From Gammaproteobacteria bacterium (GTDB lineage Bacteria; Pseudomonadota; Gammaproteobacteria; JAUZRS01): a stretch of 64,000 bases of DNA. Made by a program: the position numbers and the translations under genes. Below the pieces are notes generated by a model. That model was given only the letters and a program-made list of their open reading frames with translations. It did no database searches and had not been told where the DNA came from. The DNA lies in the NCBI GenBank assembly GCA_030949385.1, contig JAUZSP010000008.1, forward strand, positions 62,001 to 126,000. The letters run 5' to 3'. Of the stretch, positions 372 to 56,648 are shown piece by piece. Every line of letters begins with the position of its first letter. The stretch's first letter is position 1.

Positions 372-2582
372 ATGAATGCAAAAATAAGTCGCAGAGATTT
401 CATGAAGCTGCTGGGTGTGACCGGAGCCAGTGGCGCTTTAATTGGTTGTGATGCGCCCAGCATGGTGAATTTGGAAGAGGGCAAAGAGCACGTTGTCTCT
501 TACCTGTTGCCCACGGAGGATATGGTGCCAGGGCTGGGTGTTTGGTATGCCTCCATGTGTTTGCAGTGTTCCGCTGGCTGCGGTGTGCATGGTCGGGTGC
601 GTGAGGGGCGGCCTTTGAAACTGGAGGGTAACCCAGAGTCGCCTATTAATGCAGGCAAGTCTTGCCAGATGGGGCAGGCGGGGTTGCAGGCGCACTACAA
701 TCCTGACCGTATTACGCAGCCGCTGCTGCGCAAAAAAGGTCAGTTGGTACCGAGCAGCTGGGAAGAGGCTTTTGAACTGATCAGTGAGCGTGTGGGGACG
801 ACTTCTGATAAGGCGGATCGAACGGCTTGGTTCACCGGCACGATAAGTGGCCATCAGCAGGTTTTGTTGCAACATCATCTGCAGGCGCTGAACTCAAAAC
901 ATCACTACGCCTATGAGGTGGTGAATACGGCGGTCTTGAGCGCGGTCAATAAAGCGATGTTTGCCGATGAGTCGCCAACATTGCGTTTGGATAAGGCCGA
1001 GTTGATCCTCTCGTTTGGGGCGGACTTCCTTGGCACCTGGGTTTCTCCGGTGCATTTTGCGGGGCAGTTTTCTAAATTCCGGGCGCTGCCCAATCGCGGC
1101 AGTTTGATACAGGTTGAGAGCAAAATGTCGCTGACCGGTGCCAATGCGGATCTGTGGGTGGCGGCTCCTCCCGGCAGTGAAGGTCTGCTGGCGTTGGGTA
1201 TTGCCAATTATTTGTTAAACCACGGTAAGCCGGAAATTGCGCAAGATGTTCCACAAGAGATTGTCGATTTTGTGGGGCGTTACGATGCTCGTAAGGTGGC
1301 GGAAACCACTGGTGTGGAGTACGACCTGTTGCGCCGCATTGCCAAGGCTCTGGAGCGTCGCAGCCCCAGTTTGGTTTTGGCCGGTGCTGCGGTTGAAGGT
1401 CAGGAGGAAGGTTATGCCGCCGTTGCCGCTGTGCAACTGCTGAACCTGATTTTGGGCAACATTGGTAAGACCATTGTGCCCTCGATGGAATTTCCACTGC
1501 CGCAGTTGCAGGTTAAAAATGGCTCAACCGCCGATCTGTTGGCCTTTTCTCAGGCCGTTGTGGAGAAAAAACTCGACGTGGTCTTTTTTCATGGAGCCAA
1601 TCCACTTTTCAATGCGCCCGAGAGTTTGAATCTAGCACAAAACCTGAAAAACAACGTCGCTCTGAAAGTAGCTTTGGCGCAATTTCCTGATGAGACCGCG
1701 ATGCAGGCGGATGTGGTTTTACCGCTTTCTTCTCATTTGGAAGATTGGGGTACGCACGTTGCCAGTTACCAGCCTTCCGGCAGTGTGCTCGGGTTTCAGC
1801 AGCCCTTGATGGAGCCGCTGCACAGCGAAACCCGAGGTCTGGGTGATGTGATGCTGGAGTTGTTGAAAATGATTCGACCTGAAGAGTATTCGGCTTTCAA
1901 GGATTATTATGCCTACTTGCGTAACGCCGTTGCCGGTATCCAAGAGCAAGTGGCTGATCCGTTGCAGAGTGCTCAGGCCTTTTGGCAAAAAACCTTGAGT
2001 TCAGGGCAGATTCAAATGGAAGGAGGGGAGAAAAACTTCAGTATCGAAGTTCGTCTCGCTGATCCACTGATGTCCGTTACGAATGAGAGCTACCCCCTAA
2101 TGCTGGTGCCTTCACCCCGCTTGGGTCTGTTTGACGGTCGTCATGCCAATTTACCGTGGTTGCAAGAGTCACCGGATCAGATCACCAAAGTGGTGTGGGA
2201 CTCGTGGGCGGAACTGCACCCCAGCACGGCTGAAGATATGGGTATTGGTCATGGCGACGTGATTAAGGTTGCTTCTGAGAGCGGTTCTTTTGAGGTCAAG
2301 GCGTACCTAACCAAGTCAGTGCATAAAAATGTGGTGGCGGTGCCGTTGGGTCAGGGTCATGCGTCGTATGGGCGTTATGCCGAGGGGGTTGGGGTGAACC
2401 CGTTGACCATATTGAATCTTAAACAGGAAAAGGTGACAGGGGAGTTGGCCATGTACGCCACGGCGGTGAAACTGGAAAAAATGGATGCAACGGGCACTTT
2501 GGTGCGCATGGGCGGTACTGATTCGCAGCAGGGGCGGCAATTTGTCCGTACCGTGCCAACCTACAAACCTCAAGGTGTTTAG
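372..2582 (+). CDS. Molybdopterin-oxidoreductase-fold subunit of alternative complex III (ActB N-terminal half)
   Basis: A 736-residue protein of the molybdopterin oxidoreductase superfamily. The N-terminus carries a Tat motif (SRRDF, residues 6-10) and a lipobox ending at Cys26, followed by Asp27, the +2 residue that keeps lipoproteins in the inner membrane in enterobacteria. Cys63, Cys66, Cys70 and Cys98 form the usual N-terminal [4Fe-4S] site. The C-terminal part has the dinucleotide-binding-like domain typical of the family. In characterised alternative complex III the corresponding ActB domain has lost the Mo cofactor; whether that is true here cannot be decided by eye. ActB is often one fused polypeptide, whereas here the Fe-S half is the next gene, 2 bp downstream. 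A polysulfide or thiosulfate reductase was considered, but the DUF3341 gene, monoheme cytochrome and two NrfD-type genes nearby favour Act. Confidence 0.85.
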   Translation: MNAKISRRDFMKLLGVTGASGALIGCDAPSMVNLEEGKEHVVSYLLPTEDMVPGLGVWYASMCLQCSAGCGVHGRVREGRPLKLEGNPESPINAGKSCQMGQAGLQAHYNPDRITQPLLRKKGQLVPSSWEEAFELISERVGTTSDKADRTAWFTGTISGHQQVLLQHHLQALNSKHHYAYEVVNTAVLSAVNKAMFADESPTLRLDKAELILSFGADFLGTWVSPVHFAGQFSKFRALPNRGSLIQVESKMSLTGANADLWVAAPPGSEGLLALGIANYLLNHGKPEIAQDVPQEIVDFVGRYDARKVAETTGVEYDLLRRIAKALERRSPSLVLAGAAVEGQEEGYAAVAAVQLLNLILGNIGKTIVPSMEFPLPQLQVKNGSTADLLAFSQAVVEKKLDVVFFHGANPLFNAPESLNLAQNLKNNVALKVALAQFPDETAMQADVVLPLSSHLEDWGTHVASYQPSGSVLGFQQPLMEPLHSETRGLGDVMLELLKMIRPEEYSAFKDYYAYLRNAVAGIQEQVADPLQSAQAFWQKTLSSGQIQMEGGEKNFSIEVRLADPLMSVTNESYPLMLVPSPRLGLFDGRHANLPWLQESPDQITKVVWDSWAELHPSTAEDMGIGHGDVIKVASESGSFEVKAYLTKSVHKNVVAVPLGQGHASYGRYAEGVGVNPLTILNLKQEKVTGELAMYATAVKLEKMDATGTLVRMGGTDSQQGRQFVRTVPTYKPQGV

Positions 2583-2584
2583 TT

Positions 2585-3421
2585 ATGTCGATTAAAAATA
2601 TTGTTGATAACTGGTCAAAGTACCGCAAGGGCATCGAAGAGGGTGGGCATCACGATTACGAACATCGTTGGACGATGTCGATTAATTTGGATCAATGCGT
2701 AGGCTGCAACGCCTGTTCAACGGCTTGTTATGCCGAGAATAATTTGGCCACGGTGGGCAAAGAGAAATTTGAGGCGGGGCAAGCGATGCACTGGATGCGC
2801 ATTGAACGTTATTGGGATAAACCCGAAAGCGAATATCCTGAAGACGGGGCTAGTTTTATTCCGATGATGTGTCAGCAGTGTGGGGCGGCCACCTGTGAGC
2901 CGGTCTGCCCAGCGGTGGCAACGTACCATACCCCCGACGGCTTGAATGCACAGGTTTATAATCGTTGTATTGGTTCCCGTTACTGCGGTACCAATTGCCC
3001 CTTTAAAGTGCGTTATTTTAATAACTTTTCCTATCTTGAAACCGCTTGGCCAGAGCCGCTAAATCATCAATTGAATCCTGACATTACCGTGCGTGATAAA
3101 GGCGTGATGGAAAAATGTACTTTTTGTGTTCAGCGTATCAAGGCGGTAAAAACCACCGCTAAGATGGAAGACCGTGATGTGATGGATGGTGAAGTGGTCC
3201 CCGCCTGTGTGCAGGCCTGTCCTTCCTCTGCCATTGTGTTTGGCGATACCTTGGATGAGAGCAGTCAGGTTGCTGGGCTTTGGAAAGAGCATGAGGTAAA
3301 ACGTCGGGTCACTGAGCAAGAAAAAAGTGATCCAAACAAGCGTGGTTATCGTATTTTTGAGGAGCTGGGTGTTGATCCTTCGGTAATGTATCTGGAGCGT
3401 ATGAGAGATACGGATATTTAA
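2585..3421 (+). CDS. Four-cluster ferredoxin subunit of alternative complex III (ActB C-terminal half)
   Basis: A 278-residue Fe-S protein with four cysteine groups: Cys38/41/44/48, Cys96/99/104/108, Cys128/134/138 and Cys178/181/208/212. The third group reads CIGSRYC, so one Cys is replaced by Ser131; it probably holds a [3Fe-4S] cluster, as in ActB, which carries three [4Fe-4S] and one [3Fe-4S] cluster. There is no signal peptide, so export would occur together with the Tat-targeted partner encoded 2 bp upstream. Its role is to relay electrons between the membrane NrfD-type subunits and the multiheme cytochrome. Confidence 0.88.
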   Translation: MSIKNIVDNWSKYRKGIEEGGHHDYEHRWTMSINLDQCVGCNACSTACYAENNLATVGKEKFEAGQAMHWMRIERYWDKPESEYPEDGASFIPMMCQQCGAATCEPVCPAVATYHTPDGLNAQVYNRCIGSRYCGTNCPFKVRYFNNFSYLETAWPEPLNHQLNPDITVRDKGVMEKCTFCVQRIKAVKTTAKMEDRDVMDGEVVPACVQACPSSAIVFGDTLDESSQVAGLWKEHEVKRRVTEQEKSDPNKRGYRIFEELGVDPSVMYLERMRDTDI

Positions 3422-3464: not shown

Positions 3465-5192
3465 ATGCAAGAGAAAGAGATTAACCAAGATATAGCTTGG
3501 GCTCAGATTAATGCGGATGTTTTAGACAGTATGAAACGCCCCCGTCGTCTTTATTGGGTGACGTTGGTGGTCTGTGTATTGATGCTCTGTGTTGGCATCA
3601 GCGCGGAGGTTTATCAATACAATACCGGCATGGGCGTGGCGGGCTTAAATAATCCTCATTATTGGGATATGTACATTGCGACGTTTGTTTTTTGGATCGG
3701 CATGAGCCATTCGGGAACCTTATTGTCGGCGATTTTGTTATTGATTGGTGCCGATTGGCGTAAACCGATTTATCGTTTTGCTGAGGCGATGACCACCTTT
3801 TCTCTTTTGACTGCGGCTATTTTCCCCGTAATTCATTTGGGGCGTGTCTGGAATATGTATTGGGTGCTGCCTTACGTCAGTGACCGTGGTATTTGGCCTG
3901 CGTTTACCTCGCCTCTGATCTGGGATGCCTTTGCGATTACCACTTATCTTTGTTCTTCGGTGCTGTTTTTGTTCATTGGTATGATTCCTGATTTGGCTAT
4001 TTGTCGAGATAATACAACGGGTTGGCGTAAACGTCTTTATGGCATTCTTTCTGCCGGTTGGACGGGCAGTGACAGGCAGTGGCGAAATTTTAGGCAGACC
4101 TATTTCTTGATGGCCTGTTTTCTGATTCCACTCGCCGTTTCTGTACACTCGATTGTTTCGGCTGATTTTGCGGTTTCGATCATGCCGGGCTGGCATGTCA
4201 CCAGTTTCCCTCCCTATTTTGTTTCCGGTGCTCTTTACTCGGGCTGTGCAGCAATCATCACCTTGTTCATTATGTTGCGCTATTTCTTCAAGTTTGAGAA
4301 GTACATGACCAAGCCGATTCTCGAAAAAGTCTGTTTGTTGACATTTTGTATCGCGATGATCTGGAGTTACCTCAATCTGGTTGAATTTGCCTCGGTCTGG
4401 TATGGGCATGACGTTTACAGTAAAGAGGTTTTGATTGGCAAAGCGACAGGGCCTTATGCACCGGTTTTCTGGACAATGATTTTCTGTGGTTTTATTGTTC
4501 CCTTTGCCTTTTTATCGAAAAAGTTACGAAATAATCTGTCGGTTATGTTTGTGGTTTCGTTGCTTTTGAATCTAGGCATGTTCACCGAGCGCTGGATGAT
4601 TGTGGCACCGACGTTGGCCATGCCGCACGAGGTGCATCAGTTTGACATTATGTGGGGCAGTTTTGTTGAATGGGCGATTATCTTCGGCAGCTTTGGCTGG
4701 TTTGGCATGCTGTTTTTGATTTTTGTCAAAATTGTTCCGTCCATCTCAATGTATGAAGTGAAGGAACTGGTGTACCACCATCGTGAAGATACCTTCCGTT
4801 GGAATAAAGGTTTTTCTGTTGGTATTGACTCCCTTGATAAGCAGCATAGAAATTTGGTCGACTTGACCAATGAAATGCATGCGGCAATATCACATCGAAA
4901 AGACCGAGGTGTGTTGAAAAAAATGGTGTCTCAGCTTGCAGAATACGTTCAGGTTAACTTCAGTCATGAAGAAGAGTTGATGTCGAAGAGCAATTATCCT
5001 GATTATAAAGCGCATAAAGCGGAGCATAATCTCTTGGTTGGTCGGGTGATTGAGTATCAAAACCGAATTGAATTGGGTGATGAAACGGTGTTTGATGAAT
5101 TGCCGGCTTTTTTGAACTCGCTGTTGATTAACCACCTTAAGGGTACGGATATGAAATACGTTGCTCACTTTAACCAGCATGGCATTGCCTGA
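3465..5192 (+). CDS. NrfD/ActC-type quinol-binding membrane subunit fused to a C-terminal hemerythrin domain
   Basis: A 575-residue protein in two parts. Residues about 30-440 form a multi-helix NrfD/PsrC-type membrane domain, the quinol-interacting subunit ActC of alternative complex III. Residues about 443-575 form a complete bacteriohemerythrin-like four-helix domain. Di-iron ligands by alignment with the family pattern are His461 (DKQH), Glu502, His517 and His521 (HKAEH), His557 and Asp562 (NHLKGTD). The His normally starting the HFxxEE motif is Asn498 here, with a His three residues later (NFSHEEE). Hemerythrin domains bind O2 or NO, so the tail may sense, deliver or scavenge these at the membrane; this is inference. 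ActC proteins usually end after the membrane domain. The gene lies between actB2 and actD on the same strand. Confidence 0.9.
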   Translation: MQEKEINQDIAWAQINADVLDSMKRPRRLYWVTLVVCVLMLCVGISAEVYQYNTGMGVAGLNNPHYWDMYIATFVFWIGMSHSGTLLSAILLLIGADWRKPIYRFAEAMTTFSLLTAAIFPVIHLGRVWNMYWVLPYVSDRGIWPAFTSPLIWDAFAITTYLCSSVLFLFIGMIPDLAICRDNTTGWRKRLYGILSAGWTGSDRQWRNFRQTYFLMACFLIPLAVSVHSIVSADFAVSIMPGWHVTSFPPYFVSGALYSGCAAIITLFIMLRYFFKFEKYMTKPILEKVCLLTFCIAMIWSYLNLVEFASVWYGHDVYSKEVLIGKATGPYAPVFWTMIFCGFIVPFAFLSKKLRNNLSVMFVVSLLLNLGMFTERWMIVAPTLAMPHEVHQFDIMWGSFVEWAIIFGSFGWFGMLFLIFVKIVPSISMYEVKELVYHHREDTFRWNKGFSVGIDSLDKQHRNLVDLTNEMHAAISHRKDRGVLKKMVSQLAEYVQVNFSHEEELMSKSNYPDYKAHKAEHNLLVGRVIEYQNRIELGDETVFDELPAFLNSLLINHLKGTDMKYVAHFNQHGIA

Positions 5193-5217: not shown

Positions 5218-5772
5218 ATGAAAAAAAATCATCGAATGCTTGCATCGTTTAAGGATTTTGATTATGCCTTTGATGCAATCAAAGATATACGCAGCGAAAG
5301 GGTGGCGGGTGTCAGTATTGACGATGTGACCCTTAATTCTCCGATAGAACATCCAGAAATTGATGAGGTTTTAGGCAATCGTCCTGTTTACATTGCCCGT
5401 TTTGCTTTTTTTGGCGCGGTGTTTGGAATGGTCTTTGGTTTTATTTTTCTGGCCTCTGCGCAGGCTGGATTTTTGGTGCAGCCGGTGGGAGGAAAGCCGG
5501 TTATTCCTTTGATTAGTAACATCGTTTTGATTTATGAGATGTTCATCTTTTTTGCTGTTTGGTCGATTTTTTTTGGTTTTATGTTGATGTCTGGGCTGTT
5601 TAAAAACAGCATGCTGGTGTTGTTTAACAGAAATAAAGAGCTCTATAACGAAGCTTCGAGTGTGGATGAAGTGGTGGTGATTGTGGAGACGGATGAGTTG
5701 TTGCTCAGTCATTTAAAGGCCTTATTTGAAGAACACTCTGCCGTTGATGTTAAGTGGGAGAAAATTGCATGA
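5218..5772 (+). CDS. ActD-like DUF3341 membrane subunit of alternative complex III
   Basis: A 184-residue protein with a soluble N-terminal section, two transmembrane helices (about residues 59-84 and 98-125) and a soluble C-terminal tail. This layout is that of DUF3341/ActD, a structural subunit of alternative complex III without known cofactors. It starts 25 bp after the ActC-hemerythrin gene, and its stop overlaps the next start (ATGA at 5769-5772), indicating translational coupling. Its presence is the strongest sign that the operon is Act rather than a polysulfide-reductase-type enzyme. Confidence 0.88.
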   Translation: MKKNHRMLASFKDFDYAFDAIKDIRSERVAGVSIDDVTLNSPIEHPEIDEVLGNRPVYIARFAFFGAVFGMVFGFIFLASAQAGFLVQPVGGKPVIPLISNIVLIYEMFIFFAVWSIFFGFMLMSGLFKNSMLVLFNRNKELYNEASSVDEVVVIVETDELLLSHLKALFEEHSAVDVKWEKIA

Positions 5773-6323
5773 AAAACTGGCCATTGATCCTGTTGAGCTT
5801 GTTGGCTTATAGTTATGTCCCTTCGCTTTACGCTTGGCCGTGGTCTACTGATATGGGCAATCAGATCAGTATTAAACCTCAGGAGCCTGCTATTGTAGGC
5901 GCAGGTGGTGAGTTGCAGATGCGTTCTTTTCCTAAGCGTTCCATTGCCGTTACGGGTAAAGCGACTACAGTGGCTAATAGAGAAGAGTCAGATGCCTTGC
6001 TGAATCCTGTTGCAGTAGATGCGCTCTCACTCAGAAAAGGCCGGCAGTTGTATGACATTTATTGTTCTGCTTGTCACGGTTATGACGGCAAAGCAAATAC
6101 GCCGGTGAGCCGTAAGATTTTTTCGGTGCCTTTGATTAATGAGCGGGTGCAACAAGAGATCAGTGAAGGTTGGCTGTGGGGTACGATCACGTTTGGGAGT
6201 GCCATTATGCCTGCTTACGGAGTGCCTGGTGCCGGTGGTGGCAGTAACGATCTGACCGTCGAAGAGCGTTGGCATGTGGTGAATTATATTCGCAACGGTT
6301 TGCTTGATGTGGTGTCCCGTTAG
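5769..6323 (+). CDS. Monoheme cytochrome c subunit of alternative complex III (ActE-like)
   Basis: A 184-residue secreted cytochrome. ATG 5769 is preferred over the in-frame GTG at 5754 because it follows GGGAG (5756-5760) at normal spacing, overlaps the previous stop as ATGA, and gives a clean signal peptide cut near residues 20-22. The heme site is Cys99-Ser-Ala-Cys102-His103, and Met147 in the sequence IMPAYG is the likely sixth ligand. ActE is a monoheme cytochrome c that accepts electrons from the pentaheme subunit in characterised complexes. No lipobox is visible, unlike ActE proteins described as lipoproteins. Confidence 0.87.
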   Translation: MKNWPLILLSLLAYSYVPSLYAWPWSTDMGNQISIKPQEPAIVGAGGELQMRSFPKRSIAVTGKATTVANREESDALLNPVAVDALSLRKGRQLYDIYCSACHGYDGKANTPVSRKIFSVPLINERVQQEISEGWLWGTITFGSAIMPAYGVPGAGGGSNDLTVEERWHVVNYIRNGLLDVVSR

Positions 6324-6388: not shown

Positions 6389-7414
6389 ATGGAATTTTTT
6401 GGTAGCTGGTCCATTTTGACGACGAATTTTTTAATCGTCTTGTACGTCGCAATAGGGGGGGTAACACTCTCCTCTATCTTGGTGTTGGTAAATGCGCAGT
6501 GGCGTTATCAGGTTTATGGTTATGCGGCGGCGTTTAACTCTCTATTGCCCATTGCCTTTATTATGCTGTTGGTTCTGCTCTTTAATGGCGAGTCGACTTT
6601 TCCTTGGTTGGCAGATGCTGAAAGTCAGCACCTTTCTGGCTGGCATAATTATACATTTTTGGTGGCGCGGGAAATTATTGGCTTTTTGATTGTCGCTGCG
6701 ACGTGTGTTTATTTTTGTAAAATGCAAAAAAAGGTTCTTTCAAGTGAAAGCTCTGATAAGGATAAGGCAAACTTGAAGTTTATCGCGGTTATTGTTCCGT
6801 TTGTGTATGTCTTTTATGGCACGATGGTGGCTTGGGATTTTGAAATGACTTTAACACCGGGTTGGCACAGTGCCATTTACGGTGCTTATCATTTTGTCAG
6901 TAATTTTCATGGTTTTCTGGCCTGCTTTGCACTTTTTCTAATCTATCTGGATCTTTCTGGGAAAAGAAAAAAACCGTATGATGCTCGGGTGCTGAATTTT
7001 ATGGCACAGTTGATGTTGGGTTTCACCATTCTCTGGACTTATTTTTATTTTTCCCAATATTTGTTGATTTGGTATGGCCGTTTGCCTGATGAGCTGGCGC
7101 GTTTTTCCAGTATGGATGAGGGTTTGGGGGTGTTATGGACGACGTTTGTGGTGTTCAAATTTGTGATTCCTTTCACAGCCTTGGCGGCAATTACGGCGGC
7201 TCGGCATAATCCAATTTTGATTGGGGCGGTGGCATGCTCTATTTTGGCGGGTACTTGGTTGGAGCGTTATGTTTGGATTTCGGGTTCCGTTGACAGCGAG
7301 TATTACCACATGCCTTTTACTCATTGGTTTGATGTTGTGGTTACCGCTGCTGTTATTGTGATTTGTTCGGTGGTAATGCATCTTGGTCTCAGGCGTCGCG
7401 CCATGATTAAATAG
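6389..7414 (+). CDS. ActF-like polytopic membrane subunit of alternative complex III
   Basis: A 341-residue hydrophobic protein with about ten predicted membrane helices and no soluble domain. Charged and aromatic residues in the helices and the WH motifs (GWHNY, GWHSA) resemble the second NrfD-type subunit ActF. In alternative complex III, ActC and ActF form the membrane core, and ActC carries the quinol site. The gene is 65 bp downstream of actE on the same strand. Assignment rests on position and membrane layout; sequence conservation in ActF is low. Confidence 0.78.
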   Translation: MEFFGSWSILTTNFLIVLYVAIGGVTLSSILVLVNAQWRYQVYGYAAAFNSLLPIAFIMLLVLLFNGESTFPWLADAESQHLSGWHNYTFLVAREIIGFLIVAATCVYFCKMQKKVLSSESSDKDKANLKFIAVIVPFVYVFYGTMVAWDFEMTLTPGWHSAIYGAYHFVSNFHGFLACFALFLIYLDLSGKRKKPYDARVLNFMAQLMLGFTILWTYFYFSQYLLIWYGRLPDELARFSSMDEGLGVLWTTFVVFKFVIPFTALAAITAARHNPILIGAVACSILAGTWLERYVWISGSVDSEYYHMPFTHWFDVVVTAAVIVICSVVMHLGLRRRAMIK

Positions 7415-7456: not shown

Positions 7457-8284
7457 ATGAGATGGCTGAAAACAGTTGTGAGTTTTTTGTTTCACGGCAG
7501 TTTTTTTATTTCTGCTGCCGCTGCTTCTTTGGCGGCCTCCTCTTTTCTGCTTTTCAATCTTAACGTTGACCCCCTGTTGTTGCTGTTTGTTTTTTCTGCA
7601 ACGTTGTTTTCCTATAACTTTGCGCGCTGTTTCTCTTTTTTATCCTTGTTTGATTCCTCCTCTGAACCTCTTGCGTGGTATTTGGAAAATAAAACCGCTC
7701 TGTTGCTGACAATTTTTCTGTCTGGCGGCCTATCCACACTGCTGGCATTTCAATTGGAACTAAGAGAGTGGTTGTTTTTGGGTCATGTGGTGGTGATTGT
7801 TTTGCTCTATTCGTGGCCGATAAGAGGACGCTGTCTGCGCATGGTGCCCTGTTTGAAGATTGTCTTGATCGCTTACTGTTGGGCAACGGTCTGTGTGGGG
7901 TTGGTGTTATTGCACAGTGGTGTTGAGCTGTTCTCTGATGTTGCGTATGTTTATCTTTTTTTGGATCGTTTTTTATTTATGGTCGCAATTACTCTGGCTT
8001 TTGATGTTCGGGATATGGCCTGTGATCGCAAAGATGGTTTGTTGACGCTGCCACTGGTTTTGGGCGAGAGGGGAGCTAAGTGGCTGAGTTTGTTTTTATT
8101 GCTGTTGGTTGTTTGTTTGGCTTTTCAGTATTTGCACTCGTCATTGCAGTTTATTTTTGATTTAGGTGTGTTGCTTCTGGCGGCCATTTTGGTCGTTTTT
8201 TCTACTGGAGCTCATCACTATTATTACTATTTGGGGCTGGTTGATGGTTTGATTTTTTTTCGAGCAGTGAGTGTGATGTTGTAA
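7457..8284 (+). CDS. UbiA-like membrane protein of unknown substrate
   Basis: A 275-residue integral membrane protein with about eight helices. A UbiA-type second Asp-rich motif is visible: Asp183, Asp186, Asp190 and Asp193 in FDVRDMACDRKDG, followed by TLP as in prenyltransferases. The first UbiA motif (NxxxDxxxD) is not seen; the matching position reads YNFARC around residues 53-58, with Asn but no Asp. It may be a divergent prenyltransferase-fold protein, active or not. It is 42 bp after actF on the same strand and could belong to the Act operon, perhaps connected with quinone or heme. I do not recognise a named gene. Confidence 0.6.
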   Translation: MRWLKTVVSFLFHGSFFISAAAASLAASSFLLFNLNVDPLLLLFVFSATLFSYNFARCFSFLSLFDSSSEPLAWYLENKTALLLTIFLSGGLSTLLAFQLELREWLFLGHVVVIVLLYSWPIRGRCLRMVPCLKIVLIAYCWATVCVGLVLLHSGVELFSDVAYVYLFLDRFLFMVAITLAFDVRDMACDRKDGLLTLPLVLGERGAKWLSLFLLLLVVCLAFQYLHSSLQFIFDLGVLLLAAILVVFSTGAHHYYYYLGLVDGLIFFRAVSVML

Positions 8285-47910: not shown

Positions 47911-49429
47911 TCACAAAATGACTTCCCTTTTTTCTTGGTTGGTGATGTTTATAAAGTATTCTTTTGGAGTTTTGTCTTTTATCGTTTCTCGATTGATTGA
48001 GCTGTCGATTCGGATAAAGTTGGAAATAGAATTAAATGAGCATTTTGCAGTGAAATTCTTCACCCTTGATTTTGGGAAAATATGGTGATTGTCCATTTTT
48101 TCTATATTTGTATTTTTTATTGGATTTCCATAAAGATCACATGTGAATTTTCCGTCAAATTTTTCTACATACATTATATTCATAATTGCTTTGAATTTTG
48201 AACTTGATGGGGTTATCTCTAATATTTGATTTGCAGTTAAATTTGGGTTGCTGCTTGGGCTGGTGTAATCATACTTTGATGATTCATGGTTGTCGGTTAT
48301 TTGATGTGATATAGAATGCAGTTTTTCTACGGTATCAAGATTTGATTTGCTGAATCCTGATCCGCTGACGGCAAGATACAAAGCATGTTTTTTTATTTCA
48401 TTTTTGAACTTGTTTGAACTAAAGGATTTTGGATTTGCTATTAATATGGCTAGTGAATACTCTAAAAATGTTATTTGTCCTATTTCAAGTAGGCCCTCAG
48501 CTTCCATCCAAGATATTATTTCAAGCATTTTTTCTCCATGCTTGTCCCACATTTCAAACCAAAAATAAGAGTCTTTTCCTAGCATTATTGATTGAAATAT
48601 GCTTGGTATTGATTTCTTTTTTAATAAATCTGATATTTCAAATATCCTTACAATTTTATCTAACTTGTCAAATCCTCTTTTGTTTTCATCATATTTGAAA
48701 AATATATTTGAGCTTGATGTTAGTAGCGTGTTGCCAGATGTGAGGCTCGTTATTTCATTTGTTAAATAATCAGATAGTCCAACTTTATAAGATTCATTTT
48801 TTATTTGAAATGATTTGGCATTAATTAAATCAAATAGAGTTAGCTTTTTGCCGGTTGAATTTACTTTTTCAAACACCCTGATTACAATCCCCAATTCTGA
48901 GTCGCTGGCTATAACTGTTGCAGGAATGCTATAGCCTCCAACAGATCCTAAGACTGCATTTAAATGGTCTGTATATTTATCAATACTGTCCTCATCTGCA
49001 TTTTTAAATACGCGAAGGAATTTGCTAACCACGGAGCCGAATCTATTTTCTATTATGTTTTTACCTGAAATGAATCTGTTGTTTTGTCTTGTTGGTTTTT
49101 CGCTCCTATCTTTAGATATAGAGAAATTCCTACAAAAAACATCTGTTACTTTTGATGTTGAGCATTTTTCTACTATCCCTTCATCTTTCTCTATATTATC
49201 TTCTGGAAATTTCTCTATTAGTATTGCTAAAAGATCAAAGTAGTATTCGTTTTTATTATCAAAGTTTAAAAATATTTTTGATATTGATGTTAGTCTTTGT
49301 TGTCCGTCTAGAATATAAAACCTTATTTCATTGTCGTCTTTACTTTTTTCGTGTTTTTCAGGTGGATTTTCCTTTGATAAGCTGTGAGCGCCAACATTTA
49401 AAGTCCCATTTTCAGCCATGATTAATAGG
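47911..49429 (-). pseudogene. DUF262/HNH (GmrSD-like) gene, 3' part, cut by an IS element
   Basis: About 505 residues of a protein whose start lies on the far side of the insertion. DGQQRLTS near the beginning is the DUF262 (ParB/sulfiredoxin-like nucleotide-binding) motif, and NHHIFPKSR near the end is an HNH-type nuclease motif as in DUF1524. These domains form GmrSD-type modification-dependent restriction enzymes that attack glucosylated phage DNA; defence is therefore the likely original role. The DNA is clearly more AT-rich than its neighbours, suggesting transfer. Joining it to 50747-50913 with one copy of AATAGG gives a continuous 559-residue frame. Confidence 0.85.
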
Positions 49430-49449
49430 CAATACTTCGGACAGTTTTA
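49430..49449 (+). repeat. Terminal inverted repeat of the IS, left
   Basis: CAATACTTCGGACAGTTTTA, exact reverse complement of 50727-50746. The transposase stop codon (49447-49449) lies inside it. Confidence 0.92.
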
Positions 49450-50648
49450 AACCTGAATAGCCCCATACTCACTCAGCTCATGGTAAACCGCCTCGACTTT
49501 TTGACAAGATCTCTCCAAACCTAACTTGTCAAAAAGTATTTTCATCAAATATTGATTGAATTTCTTGCGTCGCCACGAGGCAATCGAAATCACCGAAGGC
49601 TCAGGGTTGTTCTTGTCCTTACGGTCTTCCAGCTTCAATAAATTCAGTGCGGTGAACGAGGCATTAATATGAGTTTGAATGGCCTCTGGGCAACGCGCTT
49701 GGCAATCCATTAAACCCGTATGTTGCTTAGCTTCACGAAACAAAAATTCAATCTGAAAACGAGCGGTGTAATATTCGACAATCTTTTCTGGAGCCAACTC
49801 CGAATCCGTAGAAAACAGCAGAGCCGAACGGACTTTTGTCTTCTGCTCCCATCGCAGCAGCACCACACGGATTTTCCGTTTGAAACAACACGAGTGAACC
49901 ACGGCGCTGTAAATCGATACCCCCTTATCCATTACGCCACACGCATCAAAACGGGACAGCTCCGTTTGGAAATTGACTTTACCATCGTACGTTTTAGGAC
50001 GTCCTTTGCCACCGTACTCGCCCTCAAAATACCAGCTTAGGTTGGCATCTGAACGCAGCTTTCCAATCAGGTGTAAGTCATCTGAACAGACCGCATCGAC
50101 AAACTTCACCTTGCTGTAGTAGGCGTCTGCGGTAAGGTAGCGAATGCCTTGCGCTTGAAGATCACAGGCAAGGTCACAAACCTGTTTCGCGTAGCAGTCC
50201 ACTCGGCTCTCACCCTCTTTCTGTTCCGAGTCCAACGTTTGGCGAGCCTCCAGCGCGTAAGCGGTTCGACTTTGAAGATCAATTCGGCAAACCAACGACA
50301 ACTCCAACCCCACCATGGCTTGCCCCAAAGCGCCGTTGTAAAACCAACCCAACCCTGCTGTTTTCTGACCACTTTTTTCATAAAGCTGGCATCAATGGCA
50401 GCAATTTGATCGTGCTTTTGTGGCAGCTCTTTTTGAAGTAGGCGTCTGTTGAATTGTGCAAAATCAAATGAACGTCGAAACCAACGCGACAGACGTTTTT
50501 CATGCAACGAACTGTAACGACTCAAATTACGAAAAGTGGCTTTCCCTTGAAAAACCATCAATGCGGAAAACAGAGCTGAGAGAAAAAGACGTTGTGGTTT
50601 TTTAACACTGGACATGGAGAGTAAAACCGATTCTACTATGGATTCCAC
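49447..50648 (-). pseudogene. IS4-type transposase with one frame break
   Basis: Two overlapping frames (50648 to 50106 and 50352 to 49447) together form a DDE transposase of about 400 residues. The first Asp is in AIDASF, the second in LTADAYY, and the C-terminal Y-(2)-R-(3)-E-(6)-K signature of IS4 elements is in YTARFQIEFLFREAK. The frames join at a run of six A on the minus strand (T6 at 50373-50378), where one more A gives the sequence KKSGQKTAGLGWFYNG expected for the family. It may be an inactivating deletion, a sequencing error or slippage. Confidence 0.85.
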
Positions 50649-50951: not shown

Positions 50952-52178
50952 TTACCCCACCATCTGATTCAACTCAAAGATCGGCAATAAAATCGCCAGC
51001 ACAATAATCAGCACCGCGATGCCCATAAACAGAATCACCAGTGGCTCAAAGAGGCCGAGGAATATGGCCATTGTGCCTTCCATTTCGCGTTCTTGCTGTT
51101 CGGCGGCGCGTTCCAGCATCGCCTCCAGTTGGCCGGAGGATTCACCGCTGGCGATCAGATTGAGCATCATTGGCGGAAAAAGTTTGCTGTTTTCCAGCGC
51201 ACGGCTGAGGCTGCTGCCCTCGCGTACCTGCAAGGTAGCGGCTTCCACCGCTCGACGCATGGGACGGTTGGTGACCACCGCCGAACTGATTTTTAATGCC
51301 TCCAGCACCGGCACGCCACTGGCGGCGAGAATGCTTAATGTGCGGGCAAAACGACCGGTGTTGTGACCTTTGATCAGCTTGGCGATCATCGGCAGTTTCA
51401 GCAGCACTTTGTGGAAGCGAAACAGCGCCGCCTCATCACGAATGTGGCGTTTAAACAGCAGTACTCCGGCGGTGATGATGATGGCCACATAGATCCCCCA
51501 GCTGCGAATAAAATCACTCACCGCAATCAGGCCGGTGGTCAGGCCAGGCAATTCCTGATCGAGACTGTCAAACACCTGCACCACCTGAGGCACCACATAG
51601 GCCAATAGGCCGGTGACGATCAATAGGGCCATCATGACCAAAATAATCGGATAAATCAGCGCCATGCTGACCTTCTGCCGCGTTGCTTGGCGATTCTCGG
51701 TGTAATCGGCAAGGCGATCTAAAACGCCATCCAGATGTCCTGACTGCTCACCTGCTGCTACGGTGGCCAAATAAATCTCAGGAAAGACCTTAGGAAATTC
51801 AGCAAAACCGTCCGCCAGCGTGTGACCTTCCAGCACTTTAGAGCGTATCGAGAGAATCATGCTTGTGATGCGCTGTTTTTCCGACTGCTGCGCTACTGCG
51901 CGCAGAGACTCTTCCAGTGGCAGGCCGGAATTGATCAGGGTCGAGAGCTGACGGGTGACCAGTGCCAGCTCGGCAGGGCTGATGCCTCGTTGCAGAGTAA
52001 ACAGACTTTTTTGCTCTGTTTTACTGCTTTTACCGCCCCCGCTGGACTCTTTGACCTCCAGTGGCGTAAGGCCTTTTTCACGCAACTGCTGGCGAATTTG
52101 GCGTGGGTTGTCACCTTCTAAAACGCCCTTTTCTTCTCGCCCTTTGGCATTTAAGGCGATGTAATCAAATGCGGCCAT
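50952..52178 (-). CDS. gspF: Type II secretion inner-membrane platform protein GspF
   Basis: A 408-residue protein with two homologous halves and three membrane helices, the platform of the type II secretion pump. MAAFDYIALNAKGREEKGVLEGD and LSTLINSGLPLEESLRAVA are typical, as is the final FEPLVILFMGIAVLIIVLAILLPIFELNQMVG-type helix. It begins 6 bp after gspE. The pseudopilin genes gspG onward, which usually come next, are absent; the AT-rich island follows instead. Confidence 0.95.
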   Translation of the reverse strand: MAAFDYIALNAKGREEKGVLEGDNPRQIRQQLREKGLTPLEVKESSGGGKSSKTEQKSLFTLQRGISPAELALVTRQLSTLINSGLPLEESLRAVAQQSEKQRITSMILSIRSKVLEGHTLADGFAEFPKVFPEIYLATVAAGEQSGHLDGVLDRLADYTENRQATRQKVSMALIYPIILVMMALLIVTGLLAYVVPQVVQVFDSLDQELPGLTTGLIAVSDFIRSWGIYVAIIITAGVLLFKRHIRDEAALFRFHKVLLKLPMIAKLIKGHNTGRFARTLSILAASGVPVLEALKISSAVVTNRPMRRAVEAATLQVREGSSLSRALENSKLFPPMMLNLIASGESSGQLEAMLERAAEQQEREMEGTMAIFLGLFEPLVILFMGIAVLIIVLAILLPIFELNQMVG

Positions 52179-52184
52179 GATTGT

Positions 52185-53687
52185 TTATCCTTCGTGGGTG
52201 ACGCGCATCAACTCTTCGACTGAGGTTTTTCCAGCCAGCACCAAGCGGCGACCGTCGTCTCGAATGCCGGGGCTGCTTTTACGTGCGTGGCGTTCCATCT
52301 CCTGCTCGTTGGCACCGTCGTGGATCATGCGGCGCAAGGTGTCGTCGAGGGTGATTAACTCGTAGATGCCGTTACGACCGATATAACCGCTGTGGTTGCA
52401 CTCGGGGCAGCCCGGGGCGCTGTAGACCATCGGTAGCGTTTCATCGGGATGCAGCCCCAGCGCGGTGAACTCTGCGCCTTTGAGGGCGTGAGGCTGCTTG
52501 CAGTGGGGGCAGAGCATTCGCACCAGACGCTGGGCGACCACACCGACCAAACTGGAGGAGAGCAGAAAGGGCTCCACTCCCATGTCACGCAGGCGGGTGA
52601 CTGCGCCGATGGCGCTGTTGGTGTGCAAAGTGGAGAGCACCAGATGGCCGGTTAAGCTGGCTTGCACCGCAATTTCGGCGGTCTCCAGATCACGGATTTC
52701 ACCCACCATAACGATGTCGGGATCTTGGCGTAAAATGGCGCGCAGGCCACGAGCAAAGGTCAGCTCCACTTTGGCGTTGACTTGCGTTTGGCCGATGCCA
52801 TCCAGATAGTATTCGATGGGATCTTCGACGGTCAAAATGGTGCGACTGGCATCGTTGAGGCGAGTTAAGGAGGCGTACAACGTGGTGGTTTTACCCGAAC
52901 CCGTCGGGCCGGTAACCAGCAAAATGCCGTGGGGCAGATGAATCTGACGGTCGAGCAGATCACGGGTGGCTTTTTCCATCCCCAGATGCTCCAGATCAAG
53001 CCGTCCCGCTTGTTTGTCCAGCAGGCGCATTACGACTCGCTCACCGTGACCGCCTGGCAGAGTGGAGACGCGCACATCCACAGGCCGACCGGCGACTCGC
53101 AGCGAGATGCGACCGTCTTGCGGCAGGCGTTTTTCGGCGATGTCGAGTTTGGCCATGACCTTGATGCGTGAAATCAGCAGCGGAGCCAGATGGCGCGGTG
53201 GGTCGAGCATGTGTTGCATGACACCGTCGATGCGAAAACGCACTGCGAGGCGTTTTTCAAAGGGTTCGATGTGAATGTCAGAGGCATTTTTGCGTATCGA
53301 TTCGCTCAAAATGGCGTTGATCAAGCGAATGATGGGTGCGTCGTCGGCGGACTCCATTAGATCTTCCGGCTCGGGCAGGGAGTCGGCCAGATGCGCCAGA
53401 TCAACGCCGTCGAGATCGTCCATCATCTCCATCGCTTCGCCTGAGCCGCCTTCGTAACGTTGAGTCAGCAGGCGCTCAAATTCGTCGTTATTGACCGCAC
53501 GAGGTTGAATGGCTCGGCCTGCTTTGCGGCGCAGCTCCAGCAGCGAGAGTGGGTTTAACTTCTCGCGGTGAATGACTTTGACAACGTTCTCTTCGCTGGC
53601 TTCGATCAGTACACCGTGCCGCTTGGCAAAGCTGTAGGGCAGATGCAGCGGTTCTACGGTTTCGTCGTTGGGATTCTCTTCACTCAT
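52185..53687 (-). CDS. gspE: Type II secretion ATPase GspE
   Basis: A 500-residue cytoplasmic ATPase that drives pseudopilus growth. The Walker A GPTGSGKTT lies near residue 257, followed by the Asp box EDPIEYYL and Walker B/His boxes (DIVMVGEIRD, STLHTN). The tetracysteine zinc motif CPHC...CPEC is present near residues 400-430. It overlaps gspD by four bases. Confidence 0.96.
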   Translation of the reverse strand: MSEENPNDETVEPLHLPYSFAKRHGVLIEASEENVVKVIHREKLNPLSLLELRRKAGRAIQPRAVNNDEFERLLTQRYEGGSGEAMEMMDDLDGVDLAHLADSLPEPEDLMESADDAPIIRLINAILSESIRKNASDIHIEPFEKRLAVRFRIDGVMQHMLDPPRHLAPLLISRIKVMAKLDIAEKRLPQDGRISLRVAGRPVDVRVSTLPGGHGERVVMRLLDKQAGRLDLEHLGMEKATRDLLDRQIHLPHGILLVTGPTGSGKTTTLYASLTRLNDASRTILTVEDPIEYYLDGIGQTQVNAKVELTFARGLRAILRQDPDIVMVGEIRDLETAEIAVQASLTGHLVLSTLHTNSAIGAVTRLRDMGVEPFLLSSSLVGVVAQRLVRMLCPHCKQPHALKGAEFTALGLHPDETLPMVYSAPGCPECNHSGYIGRNGIYELITLDDTLRRMIHDGANEQEMERHARKSSPGIRDDGRRLVLAGKTSVEELMRVTHEG

Positions 53688-55648
53688 GGGGCGATGGCGC
53701 TGTTGCGTTTTGGAGTGAAACTCAACTCCAGCTCCGGCAGCAGAGGCACGTCAGAGGACATCAGGCTGTCACCCTCTTCACGCGCTTGCAACTGCTGGGC
53801 GCGTAAAAAGCTGTATTTACGGCTGGTGTGGTGATTTTCGGTGGCCGCATCACGCAAAATGGTGGGGTGAATAAAGACCATTAGGTTCTGTTTCACCGTG
53901 GCGGTTTTGCGGTACTGAAACAGACGACCGAGCAGCGGAATGTCGCCCAGCAGCGGCACTTTTTCATTGGTGTCCCGCAGGGTGTCACTGATCAGACCAC
54001 CTAAAACGATGGTTTGACCGTCTTCTACCATGACGGTGGTTTTGATCGAACGTTTGGTGGTGGTGATGTCGGTGCTCGATTGCGAGGAGCTCTTGACGTT
54101 GGAGATCTCTTGGTCGATCTCCATTTTGATTGTGTTGCCTTCGTTGATTTGCGGTTTGACCCTGAGGGTCAGGCCGATGTCTTGGCGCTCGATGGTCTGG
54201 AAGGGGTTGGTGGTACCCGCTGTGGCTCCAGCGGCACTGGTGTATTGGCCGGTGACAAAGGGCACGTTTTCACCGACGATGATCTCCGCTTCTTGGTTAT
54301 CGAGGGTGACTAAACTGGGAGTGGAGAGAATGTTGTTGTTGGCATCGGAGGCCAGTGCGCGCACCAGACCGACAAAATCGAGCACCGAACCGGTGGCGCT
54401 GCCAAAGCCGAAGGTCAGACCGGCCAAGCCAACAGCAGAGGTGCCGCCGCTGGCAACCAATCCGGTGAGGCTGCTGTCACCACCGAAATTGGTGAAACCC
54501 AAGGGCTGATTGTTGTTGCTGTTGCCGCCCGCCAGTTGAATCCCCAGCTCGCGGTTTTTGTCTTCGGATATTTCGGTGATGATCGCTTCGATCAAGACCT
54601 GAGCGCGACGGATGTCCAGTTGTCGAATCACCCCTTGCAGGCTGCGCATTTCGTTGGGCGCGGCGGTGATGATCAGCGAGTTGGTGTGTTCATCGGCCTG
54701 AATGTCGATGTCGCTGCGTCCATTGCTGGCCGTTGTTTTGCCTTTGACGGCGCTGCTAGCGGTGCGTGCTTGACCGGCGCTGACCCCTTTGAGAATGGCG
54801 GCCAGATCTTTGGCATTGGCGTAACGCAGGTAGATGACGCGGGTATTGCCTTCGCTTTCCAGTGGGGTGTCTAGGTGGGCAATCAGCCCCCGAATGCGCA
54901 GACGGTTGGCTTTGTCACCACTGATCAAAACGCTGTTGGTGCGTTCGTCGGCGGCCAGCCGAGCGTGGCCTTTTCTTTGAATGCCGCCTTTGTTGGCGCT
55001 TTGTTGTAGGGTGCCAAGGATGCGCACCACTTCGGAGGCCGAGGCGTGTTGCAGGTGAATCAGTTCCACCTCTTCGTTGTCAGGGCGGTCGATGCGTTTG
55101 ATGATCTGGGTCAGGCGATTGATGTTGCCTGCACGGTCGGTGATGATGAGCATATTGGTGGAAGGATAAGCGGCCAAGTGGCCTTGTTGCGGTACCAGTG
55201 GGCGTAGAATCGGTACCAGTTGGGCAGCGGGTACGTTTTCCAGTGCGATTACTTGAGTGACCAGCTCGTCACCGCCCATGCCACGGTGAAGCTGTGGAAC
55301 AGGGCCTTGTTTGGCGTTGGTCTCGGGGACGATTTTAATCACCTTGCCGGAGCGCACCGCCGCGTAGCCGTGGACTTGCAGCACCGAAAGGAACACTTTA
55401 TAGAGTTCATCGCCGTCCATGTCGTGAGAGGAGATCACGGTGACTTTGGCTTTGACCCGAGGGTCAACGACAAAATTTTTGCCCGTCACTTTGGAGACCG
55501 TGGCGATCAAAGAATGGATGTCGGTGTTTTTCAGGTTGAGTTTAAAGCTGCCAGCCCAGCTGGGGGCGATAAACAGACTGGACAGGAGTGCGATTAGCAC
55601 GGCGTTTACCCAAGTGTGCGGGTTTTTAAAGGGGGTCTTGTTACTCAT
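53684..55648 (-). CDS. gspD: Type II secretion outer-membrane secretin GspD
   Basis: A 654-residue secretin with a signal peptide (about 1-32), N0-N3 domains beginning FKLNLKNTDIHSLIATVSKVTGKNFVVDP, and the C-terminal secretin domain with VPLLGDIPLLGRLF. It forms the outer-membrane channel for folded proteins. Gly/Ser/Asn-rich stretch around residues 385-425 is the usual variable region. The start codon has a 33-bp gap to gspC. Confidence 0.96.
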   Translation of the reverse strand: MSNKTPFKNPHTWVNAVLIALLSSLFIAPSWAGSFKLNLKNTDIHSLIATVSKVTGKNFVVDPRVKAKVTVISSHDMDGDELYKVFLSVLQVHGYAAVRSGKVIKIVPETNAKQGPVPQLHRGMGGDELVTQVIALENVPAAQLVPILRPLVPQQGHLAAYPSTNMLIITDRAGNINRLTQIIKRIDRPDNEEVELIHLQHASASEVVRILGTLQQSANKGGIQRKGHARLAADERTNSVLISGDKANRLRIRGLIAHLDTPLESEGNTRVIYLRYANAKDLAAILKGVSAGQARTASSAVKGKTTASNGRSDIDIQADEHTNSLIITAAPNEMRSLQGVIRQLDIRRAQVLIEAIITEISEDKNRELGIQLAGGNSNNNQPLGFTNFGGDSSLTGLVASGGTSAVGLAGLTFGFGSATGSVLDFVGLVRALASDANNNILSTPSLVTLDNQEAEIIVGENVPFVTGQYTSAAGATAGTTNPFQTIERQDIGLTLRVKPQINEGNTIKMEIDQEISNVKSSSQSSTDITTTKRSIKTTVMVEDGQTIVLGGLISDTLRDTNEKVPLLGDIPLLGRLFQYRKTATVKQNLMVFIHPTILRDAATENHHTSRKYSFLRAQQLQAREEGDSLMSSDVPLLPELELSFTPKRNSAIAP

Positions 55649-55681
55649 GCTAATGCAAACGTATCCTGTGGTTTTCGGTGT

Positions 55682-56542
55682 TTACTCTAAGGAGATGGAG
55701 ACGGGGGTTTCGATACCGCCACGCTGCACCATTAGATCGATGTTTTTGGCCTTCATTAAACCTCTGAGTACTTTGAGGCCGTTTTTGGGGCTGTTCAGCG
55801 AGACACCGTTGACTCGGGTGATGATGTCTTGCGGCATCAGACCGTATTGTTCCAGTGTGCCGGTGTCTTGTTTGGGTTTGAGTCGATAGCCGATCAGCTT
55901 GCCGCCTCGACGCACCGGTTGGGTACTGACCATTTGTGCGAGTACCCGAGGGTTGGCGACAATCTGGTCGCGCAGCTGTTTAGCTGATTGGGATTCCTGT
56001 AAGATGCGGCTCGCTTGGGCGGGTCTGTTGGGGCGTTGGAACTGAATGTTCGCGCCTTTTTCTGGCAGCTTGAGGGTCTCCAGCCGATTACCGCGTTGTA
56101 AAATAATACGGTCGCTGTAAACCTCTTTCAGCTTGGCGTTGCCAGGCAAAGTGTCGCCAACGGCAAAAACCTGCTCATCGCGACCATTTTGACTGATAAT
56201 GGCCATGGCGAACTCCTGTGGTTCAAAGGCCAACACGCCCTTGAGGGTGATGTTGAGGCGTGTTTCTGGGGCGCTTTGTGGTGCCGCTCGATTATTGCTG
56301 CCGGTTTTTGCCGAGCTGCCAAACAGATTATAAGGGGTGATTTGGCTGGCGGGGTTTGTCTTGGTTTGTGGACGAAGATTGAGATTGCCGCTGGTTTTGT
56401 CACTGCTGAGATGGGTTTCAGCGGTGGGGAAAAATTGCCAGCTCAGCTGAGCTGCATTGACGCCCAATAACACGGTAAAAATCAGTGTGGCCACCAAGGG
56501 TAAACGGTTTAATAAGGCGCTTTGCAGCTGCGCAAGATTCAT
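55682..56542 (-). CDS. gspC: Type II secretion clamp protein GspC
   Basis: A 286-residue protein with one N-terminal membrane helix (about 14-34), the homology region that binds GspD, and a C-terminal PDZ-like domain (LMPQDIITRVNGVSLNSPKNG). It links the inner-membrane platform to the secretin. ATG 56542 is the only reasonable start; a longer frame needs TTG at 56599. First gene of gspC-D-E-F. Confidence 0.9.
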   Translation of the reverse strand: MNLAQLQSALLNRLPLVATLIFTVLLGVNAAQLSWQFFPTAETHLSSDKTSGNLNLRPQTKTNPASQITPYNLFGSSAKTGSNNRAAPQSAPETRLNITLKGVLAFEPQEFAMAIISQNGRDEQVFAVGDTLPGNAKLKEVYSDRIILQRGNRLETLKLPEKGANIQFQRPNRPAQASRILQESQSAKQLRDQIVANPRVLAQMVSTQPVRRGGKLIGYRLKPKQDTGTLEQYGLMPQDIITRVNGVSLNSPKNGLKVLRGLMKAKNIDLMVQRGGIETPVSISLE

Positions 56543-56648
56543 GGGATGGCGACCGTATAAGAATAAGGGAGCAAATTTTTCATGGGGGAATGATAGCAAA
56601 AAACGGCCACATCAGCGGTGATTGTGCTGTTGGCCGTTTTAATGCGCT

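Follow-up and report, generated by a model that had tools for sequence, protein, structure and literature searches.

An alternative complex III subunit ActC joined in frame to a bacteriohemerythrin domain with an altered iron site in one gammaproteobacterial genus

Alternative complex III (ACIII) widely takes the place of the bc1 complex, and how it is regulated and which way it runs in iron oxidisers are questions that the locus described here bears on. A preliminary description of 64,000 nucleotides of gammaproteobacterial DNA (the window; contig JAUZSP010000008.1, positions 62,001 to 126,000) had claimed that an ActC/NrfD-type gene continues in frame, at about residue 443, into a full-length bacteriohemerythrin within a regular Act operon; O2/NO sensing, O2 storage and protection of quinol chemistry were offered as roles. 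The gene consists of the following parts.

3465-5192, + strand: actC-hemerythrin open reading frame, 575 codons with an ATG start and without internal stop
3465..4787, + strand: ActC part, residues 1-441, the NrfD-type quinol-binding membrane subunit of ACIII (PF03916, R. marinus ActC match, fold match)
4755..4793, + strand: junction, Glu431 to residue 443, a short linker (alignment to R. marinus ActC; PMC5928083)
4794..5189, + strand: bacteriohemerythrin domain, residues 444-575 (NF033749, ligand columns, DcrH fold match)
4956..4958, + strand: codon 498, which encodes Asn where HxxxE canonically has His, in the sister species too

The encoded protein is an ACIII ActC joined in frame to a bacteriohemerythrin domain. 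Both domains exceed curated cut-offs within one open reading frame: Pfam NrfD (PF03916) spans residues 58-384 with 82.7 bits (cut-off 25.8), and Pfam Hemerythrin (PF01814) spans residues 453-566 with 45.3 bits (cut-off 25.3). Residues 24-436 match R. marinus ActC (6f0k_C) with E=1.6e-103, the next-best matches being the ActC chains of Chloroflexus, Flavobacterium and Roseiflexus, while the hemerythrin part is closest to the bacteriohemerythrin 4xpx (residues 450-565, E=3e-16) and to DcrH. The two parts meet at residues about 441-444; the fusion, the ActC/NrfD identity and the junction near residue 443 therefore stand as first described. The NCBIfam bacteriohemerythrin model NF033749 is aligned from positions 2 to 129 of 129 (residues 444-570, 121.7 bits, cut-off 84), and the domain is thus complete in length as claimed; however, one of the seven canonical iron ligands is replaced, with Asn498 in the place of His.

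The fused gene lies among further Act genes, all on the same strand.

372..2582, + strand: ActB1-like molybdopterin-family subunit with a Tat signal (PF00384, PF01568, PF04879)
2585..3421, + strand: ActB2-like iron-sulphur subunit (4Fe-4S families above cut-off; QrcC below its cut-off)
5218..5772, + strand: ActD (PF11821, 94.3 bits)
5754..6323, + strand: ActE-like mono-haem cytochrome c (PF13442, PF00034)
6389..7414, + strand: ActF, second NrfD-like membrane subunit (operon position, syntenic ActF in L034 and L056, weak ActC similarity)

The ActF reading frame is without a Pfam match, and a pentahaem ActA with five CxxCH motifs is located just upstream of the window. The operon is complete, in the order actA-B1-B2-C-D-E-F, and the description of a regular Act operon around actC is borne out. 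If the GTG start of ActE at 5754 is right, the gene overlaps the end of ActD by 19 bases (5754-5772); an alternative ATG start downstream at 5769 would give a shorter overlap. Directly after ActF is a UbiA-type prenyltransferase gene (7457-8284), which is also present in the sister genome with 94% identity and is without a match in the compared stretches of L034 and L056. Further along the window a GmrSD-like restriction reading frame is found beside a DDE transposase reading frame (47914-50352, - strand), adjoined by the type II secretion genes gspC, D, E and F (50955-56599).

A second, separately assembled genome of the genus (G001/L049, JAUZRS01; a MAG with the isolate name 12ROV5_HD12-AMOR20_M1286, the only other genus genome compared) carries the same fusion with the same junction, with 89% identity over residues 223-575. 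The sister actC is split by a contig break: ActA, B1, B2 and the start of ActC are on one contig, and the remainder of ActC followed by ActD, E and F is on the other. An assembly or frameshift error that joined two separate genes, which the preliminary description had named as one danger to its claim, is ruled out as the origin of the fusion, since the separate sister assembly keeps both parts as one frame with an identical junction and the same downstream genes, and the substitutions between the two are of the coding type; the probability left to such an error is negligible. Between the species identity is 93% for ActC residues 223-441 and 84% for the hemerythrin part, and dN/dS (Nei-Gojobori) is 0.026 and 0.10, respectively, values that are approximate because synonymous divergence is high. 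Both halves of the fusion are clearly under purifying selection.

The distribution of the fusion was followed through the window's own phylum and a set of contig loci. ActC matches were found in 38 of 369 class-sample genomes, two of them from this genus, and in 33 of 398 phylum-sample genomes, one being the genome described here; the two samples may overlap. The hemerythrin extension is absent from the other ActC of 36 class genomes, 32 phylum genomes and about 28 contig loci (overlapping sets), and outside the genus all ActC matches in the class and phylum samples stop by query residue 453. A fusion widespread in ACIII is therefore ruled out, as no ActC outside the genus among these genomes or contig loci reaches the hemerythrin. 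Several tblastn rows seemed to reach residues 464-530; once read, their reading frames end in unrelated tails. The other long open frames were likewise rejected as hemerythrin fusions, L130-L133 being upstream read-through and L134 and L135 being fusions of ActC to ActD. An order-level search around the closest ActC carrier came to one genome only, and a pattern search of viral collections gave no relative. Being present in both genus genomes and in no other ActC found, the fusion is, as far as these sequences indicate, a genus-level trait, and its rarity (two genomes, one genus) is a limit. The fused domain is also the sole PF01814 match found in either genus genome.

The ActC relatives, at 61-77% identity, have approximately 465-520 codons and a short, poorly conserved low-complexity tail that often ends in EGA; in the fused protein the hemerythrin occupies the position of this tail. 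The ActC-ActD fusions occur naturally in the same phylum (L134:3-3008 and L135:763-3060, with PF11821 at 113.6 and 53.4 bits), and two genomes with such fusions show that the ActC C-terminus accepts cytoplasmic additions.

The iron site was compared in an alignment of both fused domains and 25 other hemerythrins (A1), and the ligand columns were also set against 4xpx, DcrH and class hemerythrins. Of the seven-ligand pattern H-HxxxE-HxxxH-HxxxxD six residues are kept: H461, E502, H517, H521, H557 and D562. In the di-iron site of hemerythrins three His bind Fe1 and two bind Fe2, and it is Fe2 that binds O2 (PMC9388753). Where HxxxE has its His in 25/25 other hemerythrins of A1, both species have Asn (Asn498). 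We take this His to be one of the two Fe2 ligands, those of the O2-binding iron. Both fused proteins also differ from the 25 at three further positions that are invariant in these (T495, W553 and I558), and at Y494 the sister species has Cys. By alignment, position 558 corresponds to Ile119 of DcrH, a residue beside the di-iron site at which a His has been introduced by engineering (PMC3947700). With Asn at a presumed Fe2-ligand position and the pocket residues changed, a stable oxy form of the fused domain appears doubtful, and its reading as an ordinary O2/NO-binding di-iron module, as originally proposed, is not supported. Iron binding would still be possible, as the hemerythrin-like domains of P1B-5 ATPases also depart from the canonical ligand motif and have been reported in met and oxy forms (PMC9388753); equally, the altered ligand and the pocket changes at T495, W553 and I558 could leave iron binding weak or lost.

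The altered site also bears on the main rival explanation, according to which the domain no longer performs gas chemistry and serves the structure or assembly of ACIII on its cytoplasmic face, with metal function reduced or lost and the ligands that remain binding a residual metal or none. The change of one ligand and three otherwise invariant residues in both species fits this explanation, as do the faster evolution of the hemerythrin relative to ActC and the fusion of another cytoplasmic part, ActD, to the ActC C-terminus elsewhere in the phylum; however, purifying selection has preserved six of the seven ligands in both species, and an inert scaffold would have no need of them. A purely structural role is possible, if on balance unlikely.

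The location of the domain can be approached through the solved complex. In R. marinus ACIII both termini of ActC are cytoplasmic and form part of a small cytoplasmic domain to which ActD contributes most; the quinol site lies close to the periplasmic face, and Glu450 belongs to the cytoplasmic proton half-channel (PMC5928083). Glu431 of the fused protein aligns with this Glu450, and the hemerythrin profile starts 13 residues later. At functional ActC positions 28 of 30 residues are identical to those of R. marinus, including all mapped quinol-site and cytoplasmic half-channel residues; the sole two that differ, Y323 and E338, are in the periplasmic half-channel. An AlphaFold model features ten transmembrane helices and a separate four-helix bundle, with a moderate mean pLDDT of 68.5. 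Its ActC part superposes on solved ActC chains with Z 32.7-34.0 (412-425 residues, rmsd 3.5-4.1 A) and the bundle on the DcrH hemerythrin with Z 14.2. As generic bundle matches, vinculin and FAT domains score in the same Z range (VIA-align), so that the sequence profiles are the basis for calling the domain a hemerythrin. Folded alone from its single sequence, the hemerythrin domain gives four helices with moderate confidence. Homology would place the domain in the cytoplasm, shortly after TMH10 of ActC ends, close to ActD and next to the half-channel glutamate; with respect to ActD and the proton channel this placement is approximate, as the linker 431-455 has low confidence and the model as a whole is moderate.

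This placement is relevant to the remaining roles suggested in the preliminary description. Protection of quinol chemistry fits poorly with a periplasmic quinol pocket and cytoplasmic ActC termini (PMC5928083), and O2 storage is unlikely where each membrane complex has a single such domain and its O2-binding iron is altered. More generally, a conventional O2 (or NO) module for local storage, delivery or scavenging beside the respiratory chain would account for a full-length bacteriohemerythrin fold with six of seven ligands; it is opposed by the substitutions at 498, 553 and 558, by the almost negligible capacity of a single domain, and by a quinol site on the opposite membrane face. Searches of the genome with single families recovered one subunit I of a haem-copper oxidase, ccoN of the cbb3 type, and hence no NorB, a further point against such a module. 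O2 storage, NO scavenging and quinol-site protection are accordingly considered less likely, and a conventional module of this kind is improbable.

The same genome searches give some indication of lifestyle. A cytochrome b gene adjoins Rieske-like and cytochrome c1-like reading frames (bc1), and RuBisCO is present in both genus genomes. Both also contain candidates for a Cyc2-like cytochrome of the outer membrane (L141:1387-2673 and L142:1387-2622) that have a FARQTGMACNTCH motif near the N-terminus and a length that fits the iron oxidase Cyc2; no family model matched these proteins, which are named by motif only. By look, they diverge much more after the haem motif than the Act subunits do. 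Together with RuBisCO and bc1, the Cyc2-like protein and the single cbb3 oxidase point to an Fe(II)-oxidising autotroph as the likely host. Mariprofundus and Ca. Tenderia are the source of several of the ActC relatives. Fe(II) brings a strong rise of the ACIII cluster in Sideroxydans ES-1, where a role in reverse electron transport has been assigned to it (PMC8788666); for Ca. Tenderia, whose ACIII expression groups with that of complex I, such a role has been proposed (PMC5371394).

In such a host the hemerythrin might report cytoplasmic Fe(II) instead of O2 and so adjust ACIII flux. The non-canonical ligand set and the Cyc2-like gene in both genomes agree with this, and the logic would be comparable to that of FBXL5 and BRUTUS, hemerythrin-like iron sensors with non-canonical ligands, and possibly of a P1B-5 ATPase; however, the changed ligand position differs from that of the P1B-5 ATPases, and Cyc2 is believed to oxidise Fe(II) outside the cell. 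An Fe(II) sensor in this strict sense is regarded as quite unlikely.

The explanation favoured, tentatively and somewhat short of probable, is that of an ACIII ActC with a cytoplasmic C-terminal bacteriohemerythrin of the sensor type, which has a modified di-iron (or mono-iron) site and a regulatory role. Its starting points are directly supported: the fusion, the conservation and selection of that fusion in two species, the operon, the functional residues of ActC and the altered ligands. The hemerythrin would respond to the redox state, O2 or Fe(II) of the cytoplasm, and the loop at its N-terminus would relay the change to the end of TMH10 or to ActD; the relayed change may then tune the proton-coupled turnover of quinol and, in an autotroph that oxidises Fe(II), probably shift electron flow between the forward and the reverse direction. 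The hemerythrin fusions known so far work through redox state, and the N-terminal loop of DcrH is redox-dependent (PMC9388753). In a tree of the domain the nearest rows by path are the C-terminal hemerythrins of chemoreceptors, and the branch of the fused pair is without a firm place; it settles on no lineage as the donor of the domain. A cytoplasmic regulator responsive to redox, O2 or iron is favoured over O2 storage or quinol protection because the N-terminal loop is attached where TMH10 ends, next to the half-channel glutamate, and because these nearest rows are of the chemoreceptor type; as Asn498 replaces a ligand of the O2-binding iron, a stable O2 adduct is less likely than a response to redox or metal. 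Of the roles first listed, sensing or regulation would thus appear the best, with signal transfer from hemerythrin to ActC presumed from the arrangement of the parts. A stricter form, in which the noncanonical hemerythrin gates the ActC proton half-channel and switches ACIII between forward and reverse operation by redox, O2 or Fe(II), is unlikely as a complete account.

A member of a di-iron sensor family on a proton- and quinol-handling subunit would make ACIII regulation directly testable, in one protein and with one domain deletion; the recruitment of a hemerythrin with an altered metal site into a respiratory complex also bears on the roles of this fold besides O2 binding. The statement in the preliminary description that no Act complex with a hemerythrin was known agrees with the open-access literature searched (subscription journals lie mostly outside it), in which no fusion of hemerythrin with ACIII, NrfD, a quinol:cytochrome c oxidoreductase or polysulfide reductase is described. 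The solved ActC proteins (R. marinus 6f0k, F. johnsoniae 6btm, C. aurantiacus 8k9e and R. castenholzii 6lod) are alike in sequence (E 1e-96 to 1e-103), in the ten-helix fold, in quinol-site and cytoplasmic half-channel residues and in operon partners; however, their chains align only to approximately residue 447 of the fused protein, where the hemerythrin follows. ActB is encoded here by two genes, as in a Mariprofundus relative and unlike the solved ACIII.

Among hemerythrin proteins, the DcrH-type chemoreceptors likewise have a cytoplasmic C-terminal bacteriohemerythrin on a membrane protein; they differ in that their partner serves chemotaxis signalling instead of respiration, and the HxxxE His is Asn in the fused protein. 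Enzymes of c-di-GMP metabolism with a hemerythrin fused to the output module have their activity set by redox state and not by ligand binding (PMC9388753), but are soluble, with an N-terminal hemerythrin and canonical ligands. In P1B-5 ATPases, too, a protein of membrane transport has at its C-terminus a cytoplasmic hemerythrin-like domain whose ligand motif is non-canonical (PMC9388753); the membrane partner is different, and the change affects HxxxH (HxE) where the fused protein is changed at HxxxE (N). Measured against the definition of hemerythrin-domain sensors in the same review (PMC9388753), the protein is a single-polypeptide fusion, one open reading frame in two species, but departs from the conserved ligands at Asn498, the P1B-5 ATPases being the review's other exception. 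Both parts of the protein are of known kinds; their combination and the altered site are apparently new to us.
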